Shown one piece after another: positions 6,331 to 63,382 of a DNA stretch of 64,000 nucleotides. The notes beneath the pieces were generated by a model. The model did not search any database. It saw nothing but the letters and a program-made list of their open reading frames with translations, and was not told the origin of the DNA. This DNA comes from Bacteroidia bacterium (lineage in GTDB: Bacteria > Bacteroidota > Bacteroidia > B-17B0 > Aurantibacillaceae): positions 62,001 to 126,000 of the forward strand of contig JAGNIU010000001.1 of assembly GCA_018000995.1 (NCBI GenBank), in the 5' to 3' direction. The position numbers and the translations under genes are program-made. Position 1 is the first letter of the stretch. Every line of letters begins with the position of its first letter.

Positions 6331-6540
6331 AAACATCCCTTCGACATCCCGATAGCTATCGGGATCAGGGCAGGCGCCTCGTTTTCTTTATAGTTTGATA
6401 CCTATTACACAAACATCCCTTCGACAAGCTCAGGGCAGGCTCCTCGTTTGCTTTATAGTTTGATACCTATTACGCAAACATCCCTTCGGCAAGCTCAGGG
6501 CAGGCTCCTCGTTTGCTTTATAGTTTGATACCTATTACGC
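6331..6540. repeat. Three tandem copies carrying a gene 3' end plus a REP-like palindrome
   Basis: Copy 1 is 6331-6410 (80 bp), copy 2 is 6411-6475 (65 bp) and copy 3 is 6476-6540 (65 bp). Each contains the imperfect palindrome beginning CCCTTCGACAAGCTCAGGG (CCCTTCGGC in copy 3). Each also contains the sequence that, on the minus strand, encodes the last residues DVCVIGIKL and the stop of the phosphatase gene ending at 6518. Copy 1 differs by having the perfect 18-bp palindrome TCCCGATAGCTATCGGGA (6347-6364) in place of the three bases AGC. The CDS therefore ends inside copy 3, and copies 1 and 2 are non-coding duplicates of its tail. The hairpins could end transcription for both converging genes. 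Confidence 0.93.
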
Positions 6541-8650
6541 AAACATCGTCCACTTGTTCATATTCACCCTTCCACATTTCAAATTCCTTTTCGAGGGATT
6601 GTTTTTGTTGCTGATAATTTTGTGAAGAATTTTTAAAGAGTAATTCTTTCAAGGCTTTATTTTTAATTTTCTTTCCTTGTTCACCACCAAACTGATCGGC
6701 AAAACCATCCGAAATTAAAAACAAACTATCACTCACTTTTAATTCGAAAGCATGATTCATAAATGGCTTTCTATTCTCAAATTTTCCAACAGGTTGTTTA
6801 TTGGCTTTTATCTCGCACCAAACATTATCTTTAATATACCACAAAGGATTGTTAGCGCCCGCCCATTGTATATTGAACTTTTTATTTGCTTCAACAACAT
6901 CGGCAAAACTTTGTCCTTTAGGAATAATCAATTTTCCCTTAGGCACTTTATTGTCGGGGTGACTATCAATCAAATCAATTCTCAAAAGACTAATATCCAT
7001 TCCGTCTTTCACCTCACTTGCGCTTTTCCCGAAAGTTTCTTCAACCAGTTCATTTACTTTGTCTAAAATCTTTGCAGGTTCTGTTAAACCAAATTCTTTT
7101 ACAGCTGCATTTAATGCATTAGCGCAAACTACACTTACCATTGCACCCGGCACGCCATGACCTGTACAATCAGCAACAGCAATTAAAAGCTGATGATTTT
7201 TTATGACGTGCATCCAATAAAAATCACCTGCAACAATATCTTTTGGTTTGTACAATACAAACGATTGTGGTAATTGTTTCTGAATTAAATCCACCGACGG
7301 CAAAATCGCTTCTTGCAAACGTTTGGCATAGGTAATAGAATCAACTATTTCTTTATTTTTTTCTGCAACTAAATCTTTTTGTTTTTGAATTTCAACATTC
7401 TTACTCTGCAAAATAATATTGTCTCTTTTTTTGTTTCTGAAATTCAAATAAAAAGCAATAGCTGCAAAAATCGCCAATACCAATCCGCCTAACGAAACCC
7501 ACAATAGTTTTTTTCGGTTTTCAGAATTTTCTTTTTGCAGTTTATTTTCTGCATTCAGCAATTCAATTTCTTTTCCTTGTTTTTCCGTTTTGTAAATAGC
7601 CTCTAATTCGGCAATGTTTTTAATATTCGATTCATTGGTTAAACTATCAACAAGCCGGTGGTACTCTTGTTGCGCTAAGTAGGCATTTTTAAAATCATTT
7701 TGAGAAAAATAAAATGTGCTTAAATCCTTATAAATATTTTTTTCGCGGTAACTGTTACCAGTTTCTTTTGCCATCTTCAACCCCTCATTATAAAAATACA
7801 AAGCAGAATCTTTTTTATTCGTCTTCTCATACACTCTGGCCATAGTTTGCATGATAGACGTTACGCGTTCCGGACTATTCACCAAATTCTGCATCGCTTT
7901 AAACAAATAACTCTTTGCTAAATAAGGTTTCCCTGTTTCTACATAAAAAGAAGCAAGATTATTATAAGCATTTTCAACACCTACTTTATTATTTGTTTCG
8001 TTAGCAAGCGCTAAAGATTTAAGCATATACTCTTCAGCTATTGTATCCTTATACATAGCAAAATAACATGCTCCCAAATTATCATACAATTCACCAATTA
8101 ATTTTTTATCATCACCACCTTCAACTAAGTCAAGTGACTTCTTGGTATTAATTTCACATTGGTCGTATTTGCCCATGTAAAAATAAACAGCTCCTATATT
8201 TTGATAACTTGCTGCGATATGTTTATTGCTTTTTAACTCCTGACGAATAGTTAAAGCTTTTAAATGCATTTCGATAGATTTACTATACTTGCCGGTACGC
8301 TCGTAACAAATACCACGATTGTTATAGATAGCCGCCAAAACAAATTTATCGCCACTTTTTTTAATGTATTGCTCAGCTTTATCAAGAAACTCCATACATT
8401 CCTTGTATTTAGCGTTTGCCGAATAAACATTACAGAATTCGTTATAGGCTCTGGCAGTAAGGGTATTGTCATTCAGTTGCAATGCCAAATTCAGAGCTGA
8501 ATCTGCATACAATTTCGAGGCAACAAAATCATCATGCCTTAACTCCTCAGCTTTATCGTTATAATGCTCAAACTTGGTATTTTGACTATATGCGAGGGTG
8601 CCAAGAACGGCCCAGAATAGAAAAAATATATTTTTAGCTCTTAAACGCAT
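6518..8650 (-). CDS. TPR-repeat sensor with SpoIIE-type PP2C phosphatase domain
   Basis: A 710-residue signalling protein. Its signal peptide or first anchor (KNIFFLFWAVLGTLAYSQ) leads into several TPR repeats over about residues 30-390 (for example AAIYNNRGICYERTGKYSKS and AYNNLASFYVETGKPYLAK). A transmembrane helix follows (LLWVSLGGLVLAIFAAIAFYL), then a coiled coil, then a SpoIIE/PP2C phosphatase domain with metal-binding segments DIVAGDFYW, VADCTGHGVPGAM and LFLISDGFADQFGG. Such proteins dephosphorylate anti-anti-sigma or similar partners in response to periplasmic input. The ATG at 8650 is chosen because the longer frame would overlap divergent ileS and lack a signal peptide at its start. 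The last nine codons lie inside the tandem repeat. Confidence 0.88.
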   Translation of the reverse strand: MRLRAKNIFFLFWAVLGTLAYSQNTKFEHYNDKAEELRHDDFVASKLYADSALNLALQLNDNTLTARAYNEFCNVYSANAKYKECMEFLDKAEQYIKKSGDKFVLAAIYNNRGICYERTGKYSKSIEMHLKALTIRQELKSNKHIAASYQNIGAVYFYMGKYDQCEINTKKSLDLVEGGDDKKLIGELYDNLGACYFAMYKDTIAEEYMLKSLALANETNNKVGVENAYNNLASFYVETGKPYLAKSYLFKAMQNLVNSPERVTSIMQTMARVYEKTNKKDSALYFYNEGLKMAKETGNSYREKNIYKDLSTFYFSQNDFKNAYLAQQEYHRLVDSLTNESNIKNIAELEAIYKTEKQGKEIELLNAENKLQKENSENRKKLLWVSLGGLVLAIFAAIAFYLNFRNKKRDNIILQSKNVEIQKQKDLVAEKNKEIVDSITYAKRLQEAILPSVDLIQKQLPQSFVLYKPKDIVAGDFYWMHVIKNHQLLIAVADCTGHGVPGAMVSVVCANALNAAVKEFGLTEPAKILDKVNELVEETFGKSASEVKDGMDISLLRIDLIDSHPDNKVPKGKLIIPKGQSFADVVEANKKFNIQWAGANNPLWYIKDNVWCEIKANKQPVGKFENRKPFMNHAFELKVSDSLFLISDGFADQFGGEQGKKIKNKALKELLFKNSSQNYQQQKQSLEKEFEMWKGEYEQVDDVCVIGIKL

Positions 8651-42811: not shown

Positions 42812-44056
42812 ATGACAGATTCAGTAAAAAAATATATTGCCATTGGCGCCGCTTCTGTAGCTCTTGCTATTTATGTATTTATTGAAGCGCAAGGTCGGGG
42901 CGATTTGTTTATTTTTTTATCGGCCTCAAAAGATTTGTTTGAAAACGAAAACATCTTCAAGAATACTTATCTCGACGGGTATCACTATTTCTATTCGGTA
43001 TTCTTTGCTATTTTATTGAAGCCCTTCACCTTTTTACCAATGTGGGCTTGCAACGCATTATGGTTATGCGCTAATCTGTTTTTTGTGTTTCGGATCTTTA
43101 CATTGATAAAAAATCTTTTGCCGCTTCACGATTTTACTAAGAATGAATTAATGGCTTTGCGCATTGGCGGATTTTTATTTTCGCTTCGTTTTATTCATGA
43201 AAATCTACATTGCTTACAAATCACCATTTTGATCTTGTATTTGACTTTACAAGGAATGCAGCTTGTGTTCTCCAATAAACCAAAACCGTTTTGGGGTGCA
43301 TTATTAATTGCCTTTGGTATAAACATAAAACTACTACCATTAGTATTGGTTCCTTATTTGTTTTACCGAGGTTTTTTTAGAGCTGGGTTTGCAATAATTG
43401 GAATTTACATTGGCATGCTAATTTTACCCGCAGCATTTATTGGTTGGGAACAAAACCAATTGCTACTTTCTACCTGGGCCGATTTAATTAATCCATTACG
43501 TTCAAATCATGTGTTGGATGCGGAAGAGCGGAGCTTTCACGGACTATCCACCTTGTTCTCCACTCTCTTAGTTGAGAACCCCGGCGACACACACGCTCTA
43601 TTAATTAAGCGGAACATTGCTGATGTATCACTCGATCAATTAAAACTCATTCTTAACACAGCCCGCTGTCTCTTAATTTTATTTACATTATATTTTTTAC
43701 GTACACTTCCGTTTAAATCTCAGGTAGGACTAAAACACCGCTTCTGGGAATTGAGTTATATTCTTTTACTAATCCCACTTATCTTCCCACATCAACAACA
43801 CTACGGATTTTTGTTTATTTGTCCGGCTTTTATTTTTTGTCTGTATTACTTTATCCGAAGAAGAAAAACACTTTCTAAAGGAAAATATTATTTTATGATG
43901 ATTACAGGAATTTTAATTTACCTGTTATGTAACTTGAAATTAATTTTAGGAAATTATAACGAATATTACGAGCACTTTAAAATACTCACTTACGGCACTC
44001 TGCTCTTACTGGTTCTACTATCAATTTGTGTTCCGAAGGACGCTGAAGTTAATTAA
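42812..44056 (+). CDS. Integral membrane glycosyltransferase, GT87/DUF2029-like
   Basis: A 414-residue polytopic membrane protein with about ten hydrophobic segments. The N-terminal part (GRGDLFIFLSASKDLFENENIF, then YHYFYSVFFAILLKPFTFLPM) resembles the GT87 family of polyprenyl-phosphate-sugar-dependent transferases, where an early acidic residue in the D-F/Y context is important. Later segments GALLIAFGINIKLLPLVLVPYL and LIFPHQQHYGFLFICPAFIF also fit. The acceptor is unknown. It starts 5 bp after the pntB terminator and is probably an independent unit. Confidence 0.75.
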   Translation: MTDSVKKYIAIGAASVALAIYVFIEAQGRGDLFIFLSASKDLFENENIFKNTYLDGYHYFYSVFFAILLKPFTFLPMWACNALWLCANLFFVFRIFTLIKNLLPLHDFTKNELMALRIGGFLFSLRFIHENLHCLQITILILYLTLQGMQLVFSNKPKPFWGALLIAFGINIKLLPLVLVPYLFYRGFFRAGFAIIGIYIGMLILPAAFIGWEQNQLLLSTWADLINPLRSNHVLDAEERSFHGLSTLFSTLLVENPGDTHALLIKRNIADVSLDQLKLILNTARCLLILFTLYFLRTLPFKSQVGLKHRFWELSYILLLIPLIFPHQQHYGFLFICPAFIFCLYYFIRRRKTLSKGKYYFMMITGILIYLLCNLKLILGNYNEYYEHFKILTYGTLLLLVLLSICVPKDAEVN

Positions 44057-44125
44057 TTTTAGAAAATTTGTTTTTCTCATTTTTATTTTTTAGATTAGAT
44101 ATTCTAAAAGAAAAATTATGAATTT

Positions 44126-44153
44126 AAAACGCAAAACGCAAAACGCAAAACAC
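44126..44153 (+). repeat. Heptanucleotide tandem repeat in a signal-peptide region
   Basis: Three perfect AAAACGC units (44126-44132, 44133-44139, 44140-44146) and a fourth with one change, AAAACAC (44147-44153). They lie just after an ATG at 44118. Because 7 is not a multiple of 3, each gain or loss of a unit changes the frame between that ATG and the long downstream ORF. Confidence 0.92.
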
Positions 44154-44172
44154 ATTAGCATTAAGCTTAACG

Positions 44173-45675
44173 TTGTTTATTCTCACATTTCTTTCTCCTT
44201 TTATTACTAAATCTCAAAACACTTTGCCTACAACAACTGTTACAGGTTGTTTAAAGGTTGATAGTACAATGAGAACAGGTAATTTAGAGAGTACCGGTAA
44301 TTTAGATGTTGCAGGTTCCGGTCGCATCGATAGCTCTTTAGTAGTTGGTGATACCATGAAAGCCCAAGATATTGAGGTTTCAGGTAATGCAAAAATTGCC
44401 GGTGATATTAACATCGGTGGTGGTATGTTCTTTAAAAACGGTACAGGCATTAGTGTAACATCAGGAACAACAACAGGGACTGAAATTTATAGTTATGGTA
44501 AATCAGCTATTGGCGCCAGCCCGACATTAAATCCATGTATTAACCCCAACCCTCCTTTCACAGCTCACCAATTTGGTGGAGTTTTTCAAATTTATGATAA
44601 TGGTCCAAGTGGCTACACCGGGGGAAGTATTTTGACTATGCAATCCTGGAATAACGGAAGCTCAATGGATGTTGCCGGTGGTGGTGGCTTACTTATGAAT
44701 TATTTTTGTGGTAAGGATATTTTCATGTGTACTGGTACTAATGGAGGGTCTGTTTTTGCAGGCGATATATTTCGCGCGAGTAAAAATGTTCAAATTGGAA
44801 ATCCGGGACCCTCTCCTATAGATGCTAATGTTTCATTAAATTTATTTCTTAATGGTACAACATCAGGCTTAAAACTTTGGTCTGGAGCAATACCTACAGT
44901 AAAACTCATACATGACAATTACGACCAATTTATGGTTATGGGTAATGGCAAAACTTCTATTGGTGTTAATGCAACACCAGGCGCAACTCCCTATAAAACA
45001 TTAACCGTAAATGGCGATGCTTCTTTTGCTAATTACGGAGGTACTGACGGTGAAAATGCTTTTGAAATTTTAGGCAATAACCAAATACCAACAAGAAGAG
45101 GTGTTTCGTTAGACAATAACAGTAATGTTACTTTCTATTTAAACCCCACCTCAACCACCGGTTCTTTTAAATTTAAAAATGGGCTATTGCCAACTTATGA
45201 TTTAATGGAGCTTGATGTTTATGGCAAACTTGCTTTAACATCATATAGTACTGATGCTATTGTTGTAAAGAATTTTGGAGAAAATAAAATAAAATTTAAA
45301 ACTAAATCTAATGGGCAAACTTGCATCGGCTGCGATAATGCCGGTACTTTTATGTTGGCTGTTGAAGGAAAAATTGGGGCGCGTGAAATCAAAGTTACAG
45401 CTGTTACGCCATGGCCTGATTTTGTTTTTGAAAAGAATTATAAATTAATTCCACTATTAACGGTAGACGAATACATCAAATCAAATAAGCATTTGCCGGG
45501 CATTCCCTCGGCAAATGAATTAGAAAATGAAACTTACGGATTGGACATTGCAAAGATGCAGGGCTTACAAATGGAAAAAATTGAAGATATTTATTTGTAT
45601 TTAATTGATTTGAAAAAGGAAATTGAAGTTTTGAAAAAAGAAAACGCGAAATTAAAAAAGCAAAATGATAAATAA
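44173..45675 (+). CDS. Secreted fibre-like protein, out of frame with its natural ATG
   Basis: About 500 residues are open from a TTG at 44173. The body is Gly/Asn/Thr-rich and repetitive (LESTGNLDVAGSGRIDSSLV), as in tail-fibre-like Bacteroidota surface proteins. The C-terminus is the typical fibre end: FEKNYKLIPLLTVDEYIKSN, HLPGIPSANELE and a terminal coiled coil rich in KKE. The upstream ATG at 44118 is in a different frame (55 bases away). Removing one heptamer gives an in-frame start with a fine signal peptide: basic n-region NLKRK, core LALSLTLFILTFLSPF, end TKSQN. As sequenced, export looks switched off unless the TTG or slippage serves. The next gene overlaps its end by 11 bp. Confidence 0.82.
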   Translation: MFILTFLSPFITKSQNTLPTTTVTGCLKVDSTMRTGNLESTGNLDVAGSGRIDSSLVVGDTMKAQDIEVSGNAKIAGDINIGGGMFFKNGTGISVTSGTTTGTEIYSYGKSAIGASPTLNPCINPNPPFTAHQFGGVFQIYDNGPSGYTGGSILTMQSWNNGSSMDVAGGGGLLMNYFCGKDIFMCTGTNGGSVFAGDIFRASKNVQIGNPGPSPIDANVSLNLFLNGTTSGLKLWSGAIPTVKLIHDNYDQFMVMGNGKTSIGVNATPGATPYKTLTVNGDASFANYGGTDGENAFEILGNNQIPTRRGVSLDNNSNVTFYLNPTSTTGSFKFKNGLLPTYDLMELDVYGKLALTSYSTDAIVVKNFGENKIKFKTKSNGQTCIGCDNAGTFMLAVEGKIGAREIKVTAVTPWPDFVFEKNYKLIPLLTVDEYIKSNKHLPGIPSANELENETYGLDIAKMQGLQMEKIEDIYLYLIDLKKEIEVLKKENAKLKKQNDK

Positions 45676-46216
45676 AATAATGTTATTCTCGAAAAAATAT
45701 TTTAATCAGGTCGCCTTGCCTTCTTCGTTAGTGCTAATGCTTATTATTTTCAGCACATGTAAAAAATATCCGGAAGGCGGATTTGAAAAAAGAGGGCCCG
45801 TGGTTTTATTGAAGCACAATGGTGCTTGGACATTAACTCTTTACGAAGTTAATGGCATAGATTCTACCAATTTAATTAATTATAACGGTAATGAAAAATA
45901 CAAGGAGGTTTCTTTTTATAAAGAAGATACTCCATATCATCCTCACTTATACGGGAAAAACTTTGATTCATTTATTTATATTGTTAATTTTTTGGACGAT
46001 AATACCAAATTGAGCTTTGCAGATGGTGTTGGCTCCTATGACAACATAACCAAATATTGTTGGGTTAATAATAGCTATGCATCAGGTTGTTACAGATTGT
46101 TTTTTAATCCTGAAGGTCATTCATCCGTTTGGGGAATAAATAAATTAACAAAAAAAGAACTAATCCTTGAATGTCGACAGAATCATTCTTACAAATTAAA
46201 ATTCAAACCACGATGA
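45665..46216 (+). CDS. Putative lipoprotein of unknown function
   Basis: A 183-residue protein with a lipoprotein-type signal: hydrophobic SLVLMLIIFSTC with the lipobox Cys near residue 32. The mature region has segments GAWTLTLYEVNGIDSTNLI and FDSFIYIVNFLDDNTKLSF, reminiscent of small lipocalin-like beta proteins, but I recognise no named domain. An internal ATG at 45680 could be the start. The gene overlaps the fibre-gene end by 11 bp and the next gene by 4 bp (ATGA), so the three form one translationally coupled operon. Confidence 0.75.
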   Translation: MINKIMLFSKKYFNQVALPSSLVLMLIIFSTCKKYPEGGFEKRGPVVLLKHNGAWTLTLYEVNGIDSTNLINYNGNEKYKEVSFYKEDTPYHPHLYGKNFDSFIYIVNFLDDNTKLSFADGVGSYDNITKYCWVNNSYASGCYRLFFNPEGHSSVWGINKLTKKELILECRQNHSYKLKFKPR

Positions 46217-48747
46217 AAAAAAAATTAGGTGTTTTCTTTTTACTATTTTTGTTTTATCAAGACATTTATGGACAAATAGATCATAATAAAGCGCATCGCC
46301 GATATTGGTATTATCGTACCCGAATGGTTAATGATTTTATTAAAATTGGAAAGGAGCAGGGAGACTGCGTTGTATTTGCAGAACGAAATTTTGGAAAACA
46401 GAATAAGTCTAAAATTGGGCCTGATCAAATTGATATTATCAATCAATATATTATGACCTTAGCATTAGAGTATAAATTATTAAGCAGGGGCCTTCAAGAT
46501 AAAAACGAAACCATTTATGAGTTATTCCACTTAATGTGGACTATAAACAGATTAGATCTTGAGGCAGAACAATATTGGGATACCCCAGCAAGCAACACGG
46601 AAATTTCTTCATACAATGGACCATTAAATGCATTTATGTTACGGGAAGATATGCCATTAAATTACATTAGCAACAATAATAATTTAAAACATTTTAATTA
46701 TGAGTTGAACTTAGACCCTAATGCAACAAATCCCAAAAGCTTTTGTGGTTTAGACCCAGTTTCTTCCTTAACACCAAACGAGAAATTTAGTGGCTATTTT
46801 CTTGGCAACGAACCAAAAGGCGATTTAACAATGCCGCATGATAAATATCACTCAATGCTAGTTGCATTGATGTTCGTTGTAAAATACATTCCTTCGGGCG
46901 TTGGATATTATGAAAACGGCGTCTTGCAACAGTTCCAAGATAACGTTTCGGATCTAAAAACTGAAGCGGTAAAAATGGCAGAACGAATTTATCATTATGT
47001 AAGTAATAGCAGTTACGTACTTCATTATAAAAATTCAAACGAGTCTAATGTTGGTGCTTTGGATGTAGGAAACGGCGCTTGGGCATATGCTTGGCCGCTG
47101 AGCAGAATGGCTTGTCATGTCAAAAATGGTTTTCCTTTTACTGAAAGCATTAGTTATTGTAATGCTCAAGGTGTAATGGATCCCTTTGCTGCTTCTGCCG
47201 GTTTAATAGAGTATAATGCAATGACCACTACTTCAACCTTACCTCCAATAACAATTAGCACTAGACCATTCGCAAATAAGGATCTCTACCTTTCCCCTGA
47301 AGATTTTGCAGTATTCAAGGCTTGGGATCAAGCAGGCACTAACACATCTCCACCTTTTATCCCAATTTGGGTTTCAATGAATAATAACTCTATCGTTAAT
47401 AGTTTAGAGTGGGCCGAACTATTGAGAAAAGTTTTGCATCAAGATGGTTTTTTAAACAAACAATTAAGTGTTTTTGCAATTCCGATTGACAAAGCCGGCT
47501 GCAAAGGACCATATCATTTCAATGGTTGTGACTATCCTGATTGGGAATGGTCATCGCAAGATAGGCTAGAACATCCGTATTATAGAGGCAGGGGATGCAA
47601 TGGAAATACTGATCCAGTGTTTGAGGGAAATTATCCCGGAGTAGATTATATGCTCTTGCATAACTTATATTATGAATACATGAATCAAATTACAATTGAT
47701 GGAACCAATGGAAACGCATCAGCTAATTCACAATCCGGAGGTAATGGACTTGGATCTGTTTTTGGTTCAGTTGGCAATTTCATTAGTAACGCTACGCAAT
47801 ATGTTGTTAATGGTGTTTCAAATTTTGTTAACACTACATTACCTGTTTATCTGTGTAATATCAGTAGCTCAATTGCAGGTGTTAGTTTAAATTGTTCAAA
47901 TACATCAAATGCAAATACTCCATTCCCATATTTAGGATATAATTTAATGGATAATTTTGATAATAGTTCTTGGCCAAAAAAAATAGTAACAGGTTTTGGT
48001 CCGAGCTTTAGTCAGGTAATGGTGGGAGTAACATCAAGGCCCGCAAAAATTTCAGTTTTTCAAAATTTAACTTCCAATGCTGAAATTAATTCCTTATCTA
48101 ATGTTTGTGGCAATTGCGGAATGCAATCTTTGCAAGAACCTGCTGATGTAGTTTATAGAGCAGGTAAAGAAATAACTTTATTACCAGGTTTTACAGTATA
48201 TCCGGGCGCGAATTTCCATGCCTATGTTTCTCGTTATTTGTGTTCTAGTAATGGCGATCCAATGAACATGAGACTAATAAACGGAGACTCTACAATTGTA
48301 GATAGTTTAGACTACTTAACTGATAATTTTATGCAGATTCCGATACATGCAGTAAGTTCTCAGCCTTCAGATTCAGATTTATTTCCTTTAATAAATGACA
48401 GCACAGGTGAAAACTCTAGAATTAATGATAATGAACTTCATAATGTTCAGGAGCAAATTACTAATTCAACAAACGGCGAAAATGCATATTCTAATTTAAA
48501 CAAACGGTTCAATGTTCTCCCTAACCCAAATGAAGGCTTGTTTAAGATTTATGTCAACAGATATAACGACGACGAAACTATTAGTGTTTCTATTTACGAT
48601 AGCAAAGGTGTAGAAATAAGACGCTATGAAAACGTATACGAGGTTTTAGAAATAGATTTAACGGAGTTTGGCAAAGGGATTTATCTTATCAAAATGTTTT
48701 CTTCATTGAGCAATGAACAAAAGCTAAAAAAAATAGTTATCCAGTAG
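46213..48747 (+). CDS. Large secreted protein with T9SS sorting domain
   Basis: An 844-residue secreted protein. The ATG at 46213 begins a signal peptide (KKKLGVFFLLFLFYQDIYGQ) and overlaps the previous stop as ATGA. The N-terminal two thirds (helix-rich: RTRMVNDFIKIGKEQGDCVVF, MLVALMFVVKYIPSGVGYYE) resemble no family I recognise. Around residues 640-690, AGKEITLLPGFTVYPGANFHAYV is the 3-coathanger-stack-like segment frequent before T9SS tails. A type A sorting domain ends it (FNVLPNPNEGLFKIYV to KLKKIVIQ). It would be exported with the fibre-like protein and lipoprotein of the same operon. Confidence 0.8.
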   Translation: MKKKLGVFFLLFLFYQDIYGQIDHNKAHRRYWYYRTRMVNDFIKIGKEQGDCVVFAERNFGKQNKSKIGPDQIDIINQYIMTLALEYKLLSRGLQDKNETIYELFHLMWTINRLDLEAEQYWDTPASNTEISSYNGPLNAFMLREDMPLNYISNNNNLKHFNYELNLDPNATNPKSFCGLDPVSSLTPNEKFSGYFLGNEPKGDLTMPHDKYHSMLVALMFVVKYIPSGVGYYENGVLQQFQDNVSDLKTEAVKMAERIYHYVSNSSYVLHYKNSNESNVGALDVGNGAWAYAWPLSRMACHVKNGFPFTESISYCNAQGVMDPFAASAGLIEYNAMTTTSTLPPITISTRPFANKDLYLSPEDFAVFKAWDQAGTNTSPPFIPIWVSMNNNSIVNSLEWAELLRKVLHQDGFLNKQLSVFAIPIDKAGCKGPYHFNGCDYPDWEWSSQDRLEHPYYRGRGCNGNTDPVFEGNYPGVDYMLLHNLYYEYMNQITIDGTNGNASANSQSGGNGLGSVFGSVGNFISNATQYVVNGVSNFVNTTLPVYLCNISSSIAGVSLNCSNTSNANTPFPYLGYNLMDNFDNSSWPKKIVTGFGPSFSQVMVGVTSRPAKISVFQNLTSNAEINSLSNVCGNCGMQSLQEPADVVYRAGKEITLLPGFTVYPGANFHAYVSRYLCSSNGDPMNMRLINGDSTIVDSLDYLTDNFMQIPIHAVSSQPSDSDLFPLINDSTGENSRINDNELHNVQEQITNSTNGENAYSNLNKRFNVLPNPNEGLFKIYVNRYNDDETISVSIYDSKGVEIRRYENVYEVLEIDLTEFGKGIYLIKMFSSLSNEQKLKKIVIQ

Positions 48748-48771: not shown

Positions 48772-51009
48772 TTACTTCAAAAGAGTAACGTGACCATAAT
48801 GCACTTCTTCGCGTTTTGTGACTATATTATAAAACGTAATCATCCAAACATAAACATCTTGCTGACAAGGTTTATTAAGATAGGTTCCATCCCAACCTGT
48901 TGGTGTATCTCTGGTTCTGAAAATACATTCACCCCAGCGGTCGTATATTTCAAATAGATATTTCTCTACACCAAAAACAGAAGGCATAAAAATATCATTC
49001 TTCCCATCTTTATTTCCCGGCGTAAAACTATTTGGTATCCAAAAAGCAAATTCAGGAATAATTTTCACAACACGTATTGCAGTATCTACACAACCAAATT
49101 GATTCACCACAGTTTGTACAATTTGATACTCACCAGGTTTAGTATAAGAATACATTGGGTTTTGAGATGAACTACTACCCCCGTCTCCAAAATTATAATT
49201 CCAACTAATCGCACTTATACTCTCATCAAAGAAAATAATGTCGGGATCGTAAATACTTGTTTCGGTTGGGGTCAGTGAAAAACCTGCTGTTGGCAGCGGA
49301 CTAACGGTTATCATCCCAGGCACAACAAACTTAGTGGTATCAATACAACCTGCTACCGAAATAATAGTTAGTGTTACGTCATAAACACCCGCCGGCGAAA
49401 AAACATGTGTAGGACTGGTTTGGTTAGAACTTCCTCCGTCGCTATACTCCCACAAATAAATTGGAGTTCCCCCCGAAATACTGTTATTTGTAAATGTTAC
49501 CGATGCAGGATCACACAAGGTTACTGAATCAGCCACAAAATTTGCTGTTGGTATTGGGTAAACTTCAACAGTATTACTCAACGTTTTAATACACATTTTT
49601 TGTTGAACAATAACCGAAACAGGAAAAATACCGGGAGCATTAAACACAACTCCGTTCGGACTTTGCAAAGTAGAAGTAACCGGTAATGCAGGAGCACCAA
49701 AATTCCAATTGAATGTTGTGTATCCCGGTGCAAATAAACCACCAACCGTAAAATTAAAACTATTACCAACTATACATTCTGGTGGCGGTGGCGTAAATGT
49801 TGGTTTTAAATTCGGGTAAACATAATATGTTTTTGATGTTGTATCAGCGCAAGGCTTACCGGGGTTTGCAATTAAGGTAACAAGGTAAGCACCACTATCA
49901 GGATAAGTATAAAAAGGGTTCGTAAAATTAGAAGTGTCGGCCAGTGTAGTTGGATCGCCAAAATTCCAAAAGTAATTTGTGCCATTAATACTATTATTGC
50001 TAAACTGTAAAGTGTAACCACTGCAATATTGATTTTGTGGCGGATTTCCTATTGGCGTTGCTTGATCATTAAACTGAGCTAACACAGTTACACTACAAGT
50101 AACAACGTTAAATTGAAAATCACGGTAATGCGTTCCAATTAATGTTGCACCTCTCCATTCTTGTACACATACTCCAACAACCCATTGTCCGTTAATATCA
50201 GGAACACCATTTAAAAATCCTGTTGACGAATTAATATTAATAGCGGGGTTAGATGACATTGGGAAACCACCGCTGTAAGGACTAATAAAATTTATTCCAT
50301 TGTAAGGAGGTGGCGTATTTACACTAGGACAACTTGGAGGCGGTGAAACACAACTTGGATTTGTTGGAGGATTCATTACAATTGGACAACAATTATCTAA
50401 ACCTTGATAAGGGGCGCATAAAGAATAAACTAAAACATCACCGTCGGGATCTGTTGCAGCGTGATCAAATTTTATAGGTATACCATTACAAATAAAAATA
50501 GGTGGAAATTTATTAAAGCGCGGACAAGAATTATTGGCTACAACTTCCGGTCCTGGAATATGTTCCCAATACGTTGCACCGGTTCCTCCCGGATTTACAA
50601 TATTAAGAATAGAATTATTCCTGCAACAACGTTGATACACTATATAATATCCACCTGTTCGTGGAGGAAGATTAACAACATCTTCGTAAATGGCTTCTTC
50701 AACACAAACATCATTTGGCGTTTGAATACAAGGATTATTAATAGATGGTGGGATATTAGCCTGTGCAACTAAAGGGAAATTTAATGTTTGAACAACATTA
50801 TTATTCGCGTCATAAATAGTAACAAAAGCCGGACTATCAAATGGCGCTTGTCCTAAAAAACAATCGCGGTAAATTTTTAACGTAATGTGGTAGTCGTTAT
50901 TGGTTAGTTTATCATAATAGATTTCACCACCCACAATATGCGTGGCTTTGAGTTGCGAACTAAGCACAACAAATACTATTAAAAAATATTTAGTAAAGTC
51001 CTTTAACAC
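48772..51009 (-). CDS. PKD-repeat surface protein with gliding motility-type C-terminus, copy 1
   Basis: A 745-residue secreted protein. After signal peptide LIVFVVLSSQLKATHIVGG comes a conserved Bacteroidota N-terminal region (GEIYYDKLTNNDYHITLKIY, WVVGVCVQEWRGATLIGTHY). Four PKD-type domains follow from about residue 325 (landmarks YFWNFGDP, FNWNFGAP, YLWEYSDGG, WNYNFGDGG). The C-terminus is the gliding motility-associated/CHU_C type B T9SS region: IPNSFTPGNKDGKNDIFMPS, YLFEIYDRWGECIF, GWDGTYLNKPCQQDVYVW. It would be carried outside the cell. It is a close paralogue of the gene at 51114-53306. Confidence 0.88.
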   Translation of the reverse strand: MLKDFTKYFLIVFVVLSSQLKATHIVGGEIYYDKLTNNDYHITLKIYRDCFLGQAPFDSPAFVTIYDANNNVVQTLNFPLVAQANIPPSINNPCIQTPNDVCVEEAIYEDVVNLPPRTGGYYIVYQRCCRNNSILNIVNPGGTGATYWEHIPGPEVVANNSCPRFNKFPPIFICNGIPIKFDHAATDPDGDVLVYSLCAPYQGLDNCCPIVMNPPTNPSCVSPPPSCPSVNTPPPYNGINFISPYSGGFPMSSNPAININSSTGFLNGVPDINGQWVVGVCVQEWRGATLIGTHYRDFQFNVVTCSVTVLAQFNDQATPIGNPPQNQYCSGYTLQFSNNSINGTNYFWNFGDPTTLADTSNFTNPFYTYPDSGAYLVTLIANPGKPCADTTSKTYYVYPNLKPTFTPPPPECIVGNSFNFTVGGLFAPGYTTFNWNFGAPALPVTSTLQSPNGVVFNAPGIFPVSVIVQQKMCIKTLSNTVEVYPIPTANFVADSVTLCDPASVTFTNNSISGGTPIYLWEYSDGGSSNQTSPTHVFSPAGVYDVTLTIISVAGCIDTTKFVVPGMITVSPLPTAGFSLTPTETSIYDPDIIFFDESISAISWNYNFGDGGSSSSQNPMYSYTKPGEYQIVQTVVNQFGCVDTAIRVVKIIPEFAFWIPNSFTPGNKDGKNDIFMPSVFGVEKYLFEIYDRWGECIFRTRDTPTGWDGTYLNKPCQQDVYVWMITFYNIVTKREEVHYGHVTLLK

Positions 51010-51113
51010 AGTTGTTTGACCAATAAAGTTAGCAAAAATTACCGATTTTTAATAGGAATGAGTGGAAACCGCCTTAAAATTAGGCTATTACAGAAGCTTT
51101 GAATTAAATGGGC

Positions 51114-53306
51114 CTATTTTAACAGATTAACATGTCCGTAATGGACTTCCTCGCGAAGAGTAACTGTATTGTAAAAAGTAATCATCCAAACATAAACATC
51201 TTGTTGACAAGGTCTGCCTCCTCTATTACCATCCCAGCCTATTGAAGTGTCTTTTGTTTTGAAAATACATTCACCCCATCGATCATATATTTCAAATAAA
51301 TAATTTTCTACGCCAATAACTGAAGGCATAAAAATATCATTCTTTCCATCTTTATTTCCGGGTGTAAAACTATTCGGAATCCAAAAAGCAAATTCAGGTG
51401 TAATTTTTACAAAACGAATAGCTGTATCCTGACAACCAAATTGATTTACTACAGTTTGAATTATTTCGTAATCGCCAGGCTTCGTATATGAATGTGTTGG
51501 ACTTTGCATTGAACTTGCATCACCATCCCCAAAAGAATAATTCCAGCTTACCGAATTTAAACTGAGGTCTAAAAAATTAATGTCCGGTTCAAAAATACTG
51601 GTTTCAATAGGAGAAACAGAAAATCCTGCAACAGGTTTTGGTGTAACGGTTACCATACCCGGTACAATAAATTTACTGGTATCACTACAACCCGCTGCTG
51701 CTAGTATTGTAAGCATTACATTATAAACTCCGGCTGGTGTAAACACATGTGTTGGACTAACAGCTGTTGAATTTCCGCCATCGCTAAATTGCCAGATATA
51801 ACTTGGTGTTCCGGTTGCAACACTATTATTTGTAAATGTAACAACAGCAGGGTCGCATAAAGTAACAGAGTCGCCCACAAAATCAGCAATAGGAATAGGA
51901 TAAACTTCCACAGTATCTTTTAATGTTTTCTGACACATTTTTTGTTGTACAATAACTGAAACAGGAAAACTACCTGCTGAATTATATGTAATTCCACTTG
52001 GTGCTTGTAAGGTTGAAGTGATTGGTAAAGCTGATGCGCCGAAGTTCCAATTAAACGATGTGTAGGTTGGCGCGAACAATCCTCCCAATGTAAAACTAAA
52101 ACTATTTCCGGTTATACATTGTGGTGACGGTGCCGTGAAGGTTGGTGCCAGTACAGGATAAATATAAAATGTTTGTTTAGATGTATCTGCACACGGCTTG
52201 CCGGGATTGGCAATTAAAGAAACAACATAAGCACCAGTATCCGGATAAGTATAATTTGGATTTACTAGTTTTGAAGTATCCGCTAAAGTATTTGGGTCTC
52301 CGAAATTCCAAGTATACTCTGTACCGTTAATGCTATAGTTAGAGAAATACGTTGTGAAACCATTGCAAAATTGATTCGGAAGAGAATTTCCGCCAATTGT
52401 AATTGGATTCGACTGATCGTTAAACTGTGCCAAAACACTAATCTGACAAGTAACAACATTGAATTGAAAATCGCGATAGTGTGTTCCTATTAATTGTCCG
52501 CCTCTCCATTCTTCAACACAAACACCAACTACCCATTGTCCATCAATATCCGGAACGCCATTTAAAAATCCTGTTCCCGAATTTACATTAAGCGCAGGAT
52601 TAGATGACATTGGAAATGTGCCTGAATACGGACTTACAAATTGAAGATTTGTATACGGAGGAGGCACAAGCGGACAAAATCCTGTTGGCGGAGGTGAGCA
52701 TCCGTCGTATGGGGCGCATAAAGAATAAATCAAAACATCGCCATCAGGATCTGTTGCTGCGTGATCAAATTTTATTTGTACACCATTGCATAAAAAAATG
52801 GGAGGAAATTTATTGAAACGCGGGCTAGAATTTACTGCCACAACTTCCGGTCCCGGAATATGTTCCCAGTAAGTTGTACCTGTTGTGCCCGGTGCAGGAA
52901 TATTTAAAATGGAATTATTTCTACAACATCTTTGGTAAACCACAAAGTAGCCGCCTGTTTTAGGAGGAAGATTTACTGTAGTTTCATAAATTCCTTCCTC
53001 AACGCATTCGTTGCCCGGAGGCTGAATACACGGATTATTAATTGAAGGTGCAATATTATTTAGTGATAGTAATGGGACTAGTACACTGTCAACCAGAAAA
53101 CCATTGACATCAAAAATGGCAATCAATGCCGGATTATCTAATTGTGCTTGTCCGTTAAAACAATCGCGGTAAACTTTTAAAGTGATTTTATAATTATTGC
53201 CGCCTAAATTATCGTAATAAATTTCACCACCAACAATATGCGTTGCTTTTAGTTGTGACGAGATGACAACTAATAGGAGTAAAAAATATTTAGTAACTCG
53301 TTTCAA
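51114..53306 (-). CDS. PKD-repeat surface protein with gliding motility-type C-terminus, copy 2
   Basis: A 730-residue paralogue of the preceding protein with the same order: signal peptide (LLLLVVISSQLKATHIVGG), conserved N-terminal region, four PKD-type domains (YTWNFGDP, FNWNFGAS, YIWQFSDGG, WNYSFGDGD) and the type B C-terminus (IPNSFTPGNKDGKNDIFMPS). Long identical stretches show fairly recent tandem duplication. The main differences are a shorter proline-rich insert near residue 210 and changes between PKD domains. The two genes are 104 bp apart, each with its own signal peptide. Confidence 0.88.
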   Translation of the reverse strand: MKRVTKYFLLLLVVISSQLKATHIVGGEIYYDNLGGNNYKITLKVYRDCFNGQAQLDNPALIAIFDVNGFLVDSVLVPLLSLNNIAPSINNPCIQPPGNECVEEGIYETTVNLPPKTGGYFVVYQRCCRNNSILNIPAPGTTGTTYWEHIPGPEVVAVNSSPRFNKFPPIFLCNGVQIKFDHAATDPDGDVLIYSLCAPYDGCSPPPTGFCPLVPPPYTNLQFVSPYSGTFPMSSNPALNVNSGTGFLNGVPDIDGQWVVGVCVEEWRGGQLIGTHYRDFQFNVVTCQISVLAQFNDQSNPITIGGNSLPNQFCNGFTTYFSNYSINGTEYTWNFGDPNTLADTSKLVNPNYTYPDTGAYVVSLIANPGKPCADTSKQTFYIYPVLAPTFTAPSPQCITGNSFSFTLGGLFAPTYTSFNWNFGASALPITSTLQAPSGITYNSAGSFPVSVIVQQKMCQKTLKDTVEVYPIPIADFVGDSVTLCDPAVVTFTNNSVATGTPSYIWQFSDGGNSTAVSPTHVFTPAGVYNVMLTILAAAGCSDTSKFIVPGMVTVTPKPVAGFSVSPIETSIFEPDINFLDLSLNSVSWNYSFGDGDASSMQSPTHSYTKPGDYEIIQTVVNQFGCQDTAIRFVKITPEFAFWIPNSFTPGNKDGKNDIFMPSVIGVENYLFEIYDRWGECIFKTKDTSIGWDGNRGGRPCQQDVYVWMITFYNTVTLREEVHYGHVNLLK

Positions 53307-53458
53307 AACAATCCTTTAACTATCTAAAGTTAACGATAAAAGTTATTACTAAAAAAACGAATTTAACGATCGTCTTTTAAATTCGGGATTTGTGTAAGCT
53401 AATGTGTAATTTTACAATAGAATTCGACCACTTATAAAGAGAATCTGACCACTTATTA

Positions 53459-62199: not shown

Positions 62200-63382
62200 T
62201 CTTTTTATAATACTTCAATTGATGATCAGGCAACAAATGAGGGTGAAATATTTTAATAAAGTCTCTCAATAACTCGTCAGGATTGCTTATGCCGTTCTCA
62301 TAATAATCGCTGTAACCTTTAGCGTTACTTCTTTTGGTATTATTATAGAGATTTCCTGTTTTGTAAGGCTTAAATAAATTATAACGTTCGTCGTACGACA
62401 ATAAATTTTTTTTCGAATTTACATTTATGAAGAGGTTAAGCCAGAAATCAGCTTCCTTCGCTTTGATATAAACTTCTTCAAAATTTAAAGCAATGCTGCC
62501 CGATTTATTTTCACTCTTCCAAATATAATCTGCGCCTGCATCTTTTAAAAAATGAGCCATAAAGCTTTTTCCACCGGGAACATGCCAGGCATCGGCATAT
62601 TTAATTTCTGTTAATACAGTTGGTTTGTATTTTACCGTGTCAGTCAATGCTTTTAAACTTAAATAATTTTGTTCAGTAATATCAAATAAAGAATCTGCTA
62701 ATTTTTCCTTATCAAAAAAAGCAGCAATAAATTTTATCCACTCAGCACGCGCTAAAGGATGTTCTTCTAAATGATCTAAAGTAATGGCCACTGGAATTCC
62801 CGAGTTTAAAATTTTCTCATCGGCATCTTTTTTCGGATTACCCATACCAAACATCAACAATAGTTCAGGATTCAAAACCAAAGTTTGTTCAACACTAATT
62901 TGCGGACCTTTTCCTATCTCTTTTATTTTTTGTGAAGCGACTCCATCTATAATAAATTTATTGTTGTAATAATCTACGTTATCTACGGCTACAATTTTAT
63001 CTTGCAAATTTAACATCGTAAGCATAGCTGCGTAAACCGAACTCATGCAAGCAATATTATTTACAGGCGTGGCAACATAAAAAACATCATTTCCTAAATT
63101 TGGTTTTTGTTGGGATTTTGGATAAAGAATAAATGTTGCAGTTGTATCATTACTATCGCGATTACCGAACAAGAATAGCTTTTTGTATTGATCAAAATTT
63201 TCAATACCAAATCGCTTTGCATATTGAAGTACTGTGATTTTACCCCTCTCGATTTGATTTTCATTAGTTATCGCATTGGGATTATCACTACACGACAAAA
63301 CCAATAACCAATAACTTATAACCAGTAACCTATATTGTAACTTTAAAAACACTTCCGTTTGGTTTATTATCCTGCACTTCAA
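62192..63382 (-). CDS. Iron/cobalamin-type ABC importer, substrate-binding lipoprotein
   Basis: A 396-residue periplasmic-binding lipoprotein of the FecB/BtuF type. The lipobox is LLVLSCSDNP. Family segments are NNIACMSSVYAAMLTMLNL, ISVEQTLVLNPELLLMFGMG and the C-terminal WHVPGGKSFMAHFLKDAGADY. The only ATG before the lipobox is at 63382, which overlaps the sensor-kinase gene by 53 bp; a TTG nearer the hydrophobic core is an alternative. Together with the downstream permease and ATPase it makes a full importer. Confidence 0.88.
   Translation of the reverse strand: MKCRIINQTEVFLKLQYRLLVISYWLLVLSCSDNPNAITNENQIERGKITVLQYAKRFGIENFDQYKKLFLFGNRDSNDTTATFILYPKSQQKPNLGNDVFYVATPVNNIACMSSVYAAMLTMLNLQDKIVAVDNVDYYNNKFIIDGVASQKIKEIGKGPQISVEQTLVLNPELLLMFGMGNPKKDADEKILNSGIPVAITLDHLEEHPLARAEWIKFIAAFFDKEKLADSLFDITEQNYLSLKALTDTVKYKPTVLTEIKYADAWHVPGGKSFMAHFLKDAGADYIWKSENKSGSIALNFEEVYIKAKEADFWLNLFINVNSKKNLLSYDERYNLFKPYKTGNLYNNTKRSNAKGYSDYYENGISNPDELLRDFIKIFHPHLLPDHQLKYYKKIE

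Follow-up and report, generated by a model that had tools for sequence, protein, structure and literature searches.

A heptanucleotide array in the signal-peptide codons of a Bacteroidia gene for a predicted secreted protein: a candidate phase-variation tract

The window (a 64,000-nucleotide stretch of the genome of an uncultured Bacteroidia bacterium, here G000) contains an array of the heptamer AAAACGC between an ATG and the signal-peptide core of a gene for a predicted secreted protein, and this array is probably a contingency tract through which slipped-strand phase variation would gate signal-peptide export. The array appears to occupy codons of a Sec signal peptide, those that specify its basic n-region; slipped-strand mispairing would add or drop units and so bring the core and a 500-residue secreted domain into or out of the frame of the ATG. 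The assembled allele, with three units plus a degenerate one, would be OFF, yielding a 30-residue peptide and no secreted protein, and one unit fewer or two more would put the ATG in frame and make the protein exportable (ON). Because each 7-bp unit gained or lost changes the reading frame, one unit count in three would be ON, and the repeat peptide, KRKTQNA, would keep the leader basic. The features of the locus are as follows.

44067..44098, + strand: candidate promoter, TTTG-N20-TAGATTAG (Bacteroidota-like pattern match only)
44118..44120, + strand: ATG, very probable start codon, with AAAAGAAAAATY directly upstream in both species compared below
44118..44210, + strand: short ATG frame as assembled, 30 codons and a stop (putative OFF product)
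44126..44146, + strand: AAAACGC x3 (from the sequence)
44147..44153, + strand: degenerate fourth unit, AAAACAC (from the sequence)
44128..45675, + strand: 515-codon ORF, predicted secreted beta-rich protein with a C-terminal coiled coil
44152..44217, + strand: signal-peptide core and cleavage region TLALSLTLFILTFLSPFITKSQ in the ORF frame (hydropathy only)
44173..44175, + strand: TTG, in frame; no other common alternative start lies in this frame within the core or 5' of it

Repeat anatomy, reading frames and protein

Re-reading of the sequence confirmed the structure described in an earlier, sequence-only reading of the window, i.e., three AAAACGC units and a degenerate one after the ATG at 44118, with AATTT between the ATG (44118-44120) and the first unit. 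Tandem Repeats Finder placed the array at 44126-44151 (period 7, 3.7 copies, 100% match). The ATG had been described as out of frame, and its frame as assembled indeed ends at the stop at 44208-44210, giving the peptide MNLKRKTQNAKHISIKLNVVYSHISFSFYY. The 515-codon ORF, whose frame is 1 base (modulo 3) off that of the ATG, is immediately preceded by a TAA at 44125-44127 and, as assembled, has no in-frame ATG ahead of its signal-peptide core; it is otherwise intact, with no further lesion. Loss of one unit had been proposed to restore an export signal, and on removal of one unit the ATG does join MNLKRKTQNTLALSLTLFILTFLSPFITKSQN, a standard signal peptide by hydropathy: the first ten residues include three basic ones, the core has a mean hydropathy of 2.4, and the end, K-S-Q, looks typical of Bacteroidota leaders. 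The claim that no other ATG could supply this signal also stood: there is none in 44001-44260, and the first in-frame ATG, at 44269, lies past the hydrophobic core. As in phase-variable genes, a tandem repeat with a unit that is not a multiple of three lies a few bases 3' of the ATG, and a one-unit change toggles the long ORF relative to ATG 44118. The repeat codes for KRKTQN(A), directly N-terminal to the hydrophobic core (hydropathy only).

The exact 21-mer (AAAACGC)3 occurs once in G000. Two heptamer arrays of at least three copies were observed in the 397-kb contig, and none in eight replicates of an order-5 Markov model of that contig; the AAAACGC array in the window gene is more than chance.

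The window protein had no significant match in Pfam, PHROG, NCBIfam or PDB, and a recognised fibre, S74-chaperone or sorting domain was absent from it (Pfam, PHROG, NCBIfam). AlphaFold2, run with seven sequences, returned a mean pLDDT of 37; the model shows strands in the N-terminal half and, towards the C-terminus, a long helix. The data support a description as secreted and beta-rich, with a coiled coil at the C-terminus, and nothing beyond it; that the protein is a fibre is no more than plausible.

Homologs and the distribution of slippery tracts

The best match among 60 relatives was a gene of the same genus (L003, G007:C1; 47% identity over 282 matched residues). Its start reads ATGATTTT(AAAACGC)3AAAAGC, with the ATG in frame and the translation MILKRKTQNAKAVSLKPILAFLLLPLLNYSQSTIPTTT; the unit count in relatives, to which the sequence-only reading had pointed as a check, is thus three in this in-frame homolog. 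The L003 leader, MILKRKTQNAKAVSLKPILAFLLLPLLNYSQS, has 29 residues ahead of SQ, as has the window leader minus one unit, so that the two align gap-free, and from the ATG to the common AAGCTTAA the window is 7 bases, i.e., one unit, longer. Both species have AAAAGAAAAATY directly before the ATG and a TTTG at -51 (the TA..TT spacing is also similar), which makes it very probable that translation truly starts at ATG 44118.

This bears on the idea that the assembled allele makes its protein by another route, either from the TTG at 44173 or through slippage, during translation or transcription, on the A-rich repeat. The TTG, which the earlier reading had left unmentioned, is in frame, and the peptide read from it is hydrophobic, but it starts inside the core, with no Lys or Arg after it, and its product would be devoid of a basic n-region; for slippage, runs of AAAA are short, and in the homolog the leader is read from the ATG through the repeat. 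The context upstream of the ATG is kept in both species. We regard such a route as highly improbable. An extra unit introduced by sequencing or assembly into a genome that is truly in frame has an equally small probability. G000 is a draft genome of 77 contigs, and the homolog is in frame; the 26-bp array, however, lies well inside any read, an exact 7-base insertion would be an unusual sequencing error, the long neighbouring genes of the window are open, and a minority allele assembled from a mixed population would itself favour switching.

The window gene and L003 share no DNA word longer than the repeat plus its flank (about 29 bp; elsewhere below 16 bp). Identical residues are encoded by the same codon in 6 of 6 cases within the repeat, the less common codons CGC and ACG among them, vs 86 of 170 (51%) outside it. 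Taken alone, the codon count is no more than suggestive, since six codons would all match by chance about once in 60 times, and the common DNA word is, as far as this pair of genes goes, the stronger support for preservation of the repeat. Mere protein conservation was rejected as an explanation on codon identity and the shared word of about 29 bp; copying within the array could contribute to the preservation of its DNA.

Among 395 genomes of the class, (AAAACGC)3 was found in three (G000, G007 and G291), each time directly 3' of an ATG in a signal-peptide n-region; in G291, which belongs to another family, it lies in an unrelated secreted DUF7948/SBBP protein with the leader MKTQNAKRRTRIALTVVIGAMSTALVSAQ. 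Heptamer arrays of at least three copies were counted in two genomes. The 710 kb of G000 that were covered contain two, both in signal-peptide n-regions, the second being (AAAATTC)4.4 immediately 3' of the ATG of a gene for a PstS-like lipoprotein (L052, G000:C19, 6212-6242), in frame and on the same contig as the window array; the 420 kb covered in G007 contain one, that of the window homolog. A search of viral contigs for the array flanks found no copy. In other genomes of the family, AAAATTC arrays often lie elsewhere within genes, including an apparent ileS (L155, G006:C36, 1501-1525, where the array is apparently in frame and reads FKIQNSKFKIN). Because AAAATTC arrays sit at various places inside genes, a heptamer array alone is no proof of a switch, and they lend something to the view that such arrays are functionless dispersed repeats, tolerated in lysine-rich n-regions. 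This view is nevertheless the least probable of those considered: homologs carry poly-C or pentamers, not heptamers, at the same position, encoding other residues, and AAAACGC as a dispersed element was rejected, with only three sites in 395 genomes, all of them in n-regions.

When the 5' ends of homologs of the window protein from the same GTDB family were examined, many had a slippery tract between the start codon and the signal-peptide core, with mixed frames. The (ATCGCAA)8 of L070 (G004, same genus) and the CAACT pentamers of L086 (G028) are out of frame; homologs in G035, G032, G029, G009 and G028 carry poly-C of 9 to 16. The poly-C tract is in frame in L076 (C12), L097 (C16), L165 (C10), L207 (C9) and L233 (C9), and also in L163, a different secreted protein. 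It is out of frame in L162, L169, L189 and L198 (C10), L085 and L194 (C11), L077 (C10), L204 (C12) and L213 (C14), and in two other secreted proteins, L201 and L203 (C9). In L095, L196 and L197 two candidate starts lie four bases apart in different frames, which leaves the frame ambiguous. The leaders of L076 and L077 are near-identical and come from one genome, one in frame with C12 and one out of frame with C10. Roughly one in three tracts in frame is the expectation for freely drifting tracts. Single poly-C frame calls are soft, because draft assemblies can miscount homopolymers. Poly-C runs of 82 bases (L119, G066:C37:1-82) and 94 bases (L120, G067:C190 from 16111) at contig ends are probably assembly artefacts and a warning for poly-C lengths in drafts.

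In seven genomes, 15 of 40 poly-C tracts of at least 9 lay in signal-peptide n-regions under a strict criterion, vs 0.69% of random positions drawn from G000 and G007 (binomial p about 1e-22, several of the tracts being paralogous and not independent). None of the poly-C tracts of G000 itself is at a signal peptide. Queried with an alignment of two sequences, the named genomes yielded no relative; queried with the C-terminal domain, they yielded a broad family, from which 109 ORFs of named Bacteroidota genomes with a related C-terminal domain served as control. Nearly all of these have ordinary in-frame signal peptides, with no tract beyond short A/T runs, and the poly-C leaders in the control were confined to three ORFs (L213, L214 and L233) from two uncultured MAGs. 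Since the control ORFs are nearly all without tracts, the tracts are a feature of the window lineage and not of the domain. We lean, if slightly, towards a wider reading in which the family would keep a surface-protein repertoire under combinatorial phase variation, with the n-region as the standard site and the tract (heptamer, pentamer or poly-C) interchangeable between lineages.

Three further observations were made on leaders of the family. L201 and L203 (both G029:C6) share a near-identical leader (ATGCTTATG.., ACATTTTTAAG.., GGGCTTGGTAAAATTA, then C9) on large but different proteins, which suggests that leader and tract were copied between unrelated genes. In the homolog L016 (G004:C77, 960-990), A7 follows an upstream ATG whose frame is not that of the signal-peptide core; an internal ATG is another possible start. 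The homolog L007 (G030:C12, 1470-1490) has an in-frame TAA in its signal peptide (MKKII*SAIFIVGSVFIANAQ) in an otherwise open 376-codon frame.

Standing of the proposed switch and comparison with known systems

The slipped-strand ON/OFF switch proposed in the sequence-only reading gained from the anatomy, the in-frame homolog and the mixed frames of the homolog tracts, while slippage as the cause, reversibility, an effect on expression, surface location and a benefit from heterogeneity are what we infer. Slippage rates drop with lower unit number, and with only three perfect units (three pure units also in G007) the rate may be low. Because the array is short, the switch may be slow, or the assembled allele may be a single frameshift, fixed OFF. 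The unit duplication might be read as an ordinary frameshift allele, with the gene off in this lineage and on course to become a pseudogene and no reversible switching of consequence. The low number of perfect units, the shorter in-frame length of L003 and the signal peptide of L007, broken by a stop and not by a repeat, fit this account; the 515 codons without another lesion, the preservation of repeat DNA beyond what the protein requires and the recurrence of tract-type homologs with mixed frames argue against it, and we consider it unlikely.

A contingency tract of the kind favoured here has its nearest models in opa and neuO. Neisseria opa carries the CTCTT pentamer in its leader-peptide coding region (PMC3960869). 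By hydropathy, the window repeat likewise lies in the leader-peptide coding region: in both cases a non-triplet tandem repeat occupies signal-peptide codons, the frame decides (for the window gene, would decide) whether the whole protein is made, and a family of paralogs carries independent tracts; opa encodes a surface protein, and the window protein is presumably one. The window gene differs in its 7-bp unit, its few units, its occurrence in Bacteroidota and its unrelated protein, with no significant match in Pfam, NCBIfam or PDB to indicate homology to the Opa outer-membrane beta-barrel. CTCTT in opa codes for part of the leader core, whereas the window repeat codes for the basic n-region.

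E. coli K1 neuO carries the heptamer AAGACTC, with 3 to 53 units across genomes, most of them OFF (PMC13001214), so that three units do occur in a known switch. As in neuO, the window gene has a heptanucleotide array in its 5' coding region with one unit count in three ON. The neuO gene, however, encodes a phage-borne capsule O-acetyltransferase in which the repeat peptide is part of the enzyme and the repeat number affects activity, whereas the window repeat lies in a leader that should be cleaved off; the window protein has no sialic-acid O-acetyltransferase domain. Neisseria also has poly-C and poly-G contingency genes. Those homologs of the window protein that have 9 to 16 C residues close to the start codon, in mixed frames, resemble these; the window gene itself has a heptamer, and the poly-C members belong to other genera of the same family. 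The dispersed heptanucleotide repeats of cyanobacteria and Xanthomonas are also tandem arrays of a seven-base unit, but they are numerous and mostly intergenic (PMC4692102), whereas the window array is gene-specific and at a start codon.

By analogy, the window gene would work like opa and neuO, and by protein it belongs to neither. In Bacteroidota, phase variation of the surface is known mainly through invertible DNA, and a literature search of partial coverage found no report of such slippage switches in the phylum. If the wider reading for the family is true, Bacteroidota, known for switching by DNA inversion, would have slippage as a second way to vary their surface, and heterogeneity in environmental populations could be followed at the level of reads; this reading predicts mixtures of unit numbers in existing metagenome reads, where this can be tested. 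Slippery tracts in export signals across the family would, if true, mean that annotations miss or truncate many surface proteins.

Downstream genes and other features of the window

The order of the next two genes is kept in G007, where the flanking genes differ.

45665..46216, + strand: lipoprotein-like gene (..STCKKYPE..), same order in G007 by the common CKKYPE motif, unaligned
46213..48747, + strand: gene with a T9SS sorting domain (Por_Secre_tail) and a GCX_COOH domain, same order in G007

Further along, the minus strand encodes two adjacent paralogous large secreted proteins (48772-51048 and 51114-53315), which are 71% identical over 750 residues. A 65-bp unit containing CTTCGACAAGCTCAGGGCAGGCT is repeated 2.8 times (96%) at 6365-6547, at the end of a minus-strand ORF. 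A degenerate AACCAAT-like heptamer array (75-81%) lies at 63299-63334 in a minus-strand gene, where it codes for the hydrophobic core of a signal peptide, YRLLVISYWLLVLSCSDN, that resembles those of lipoproteins; the likely start codon is GTG.
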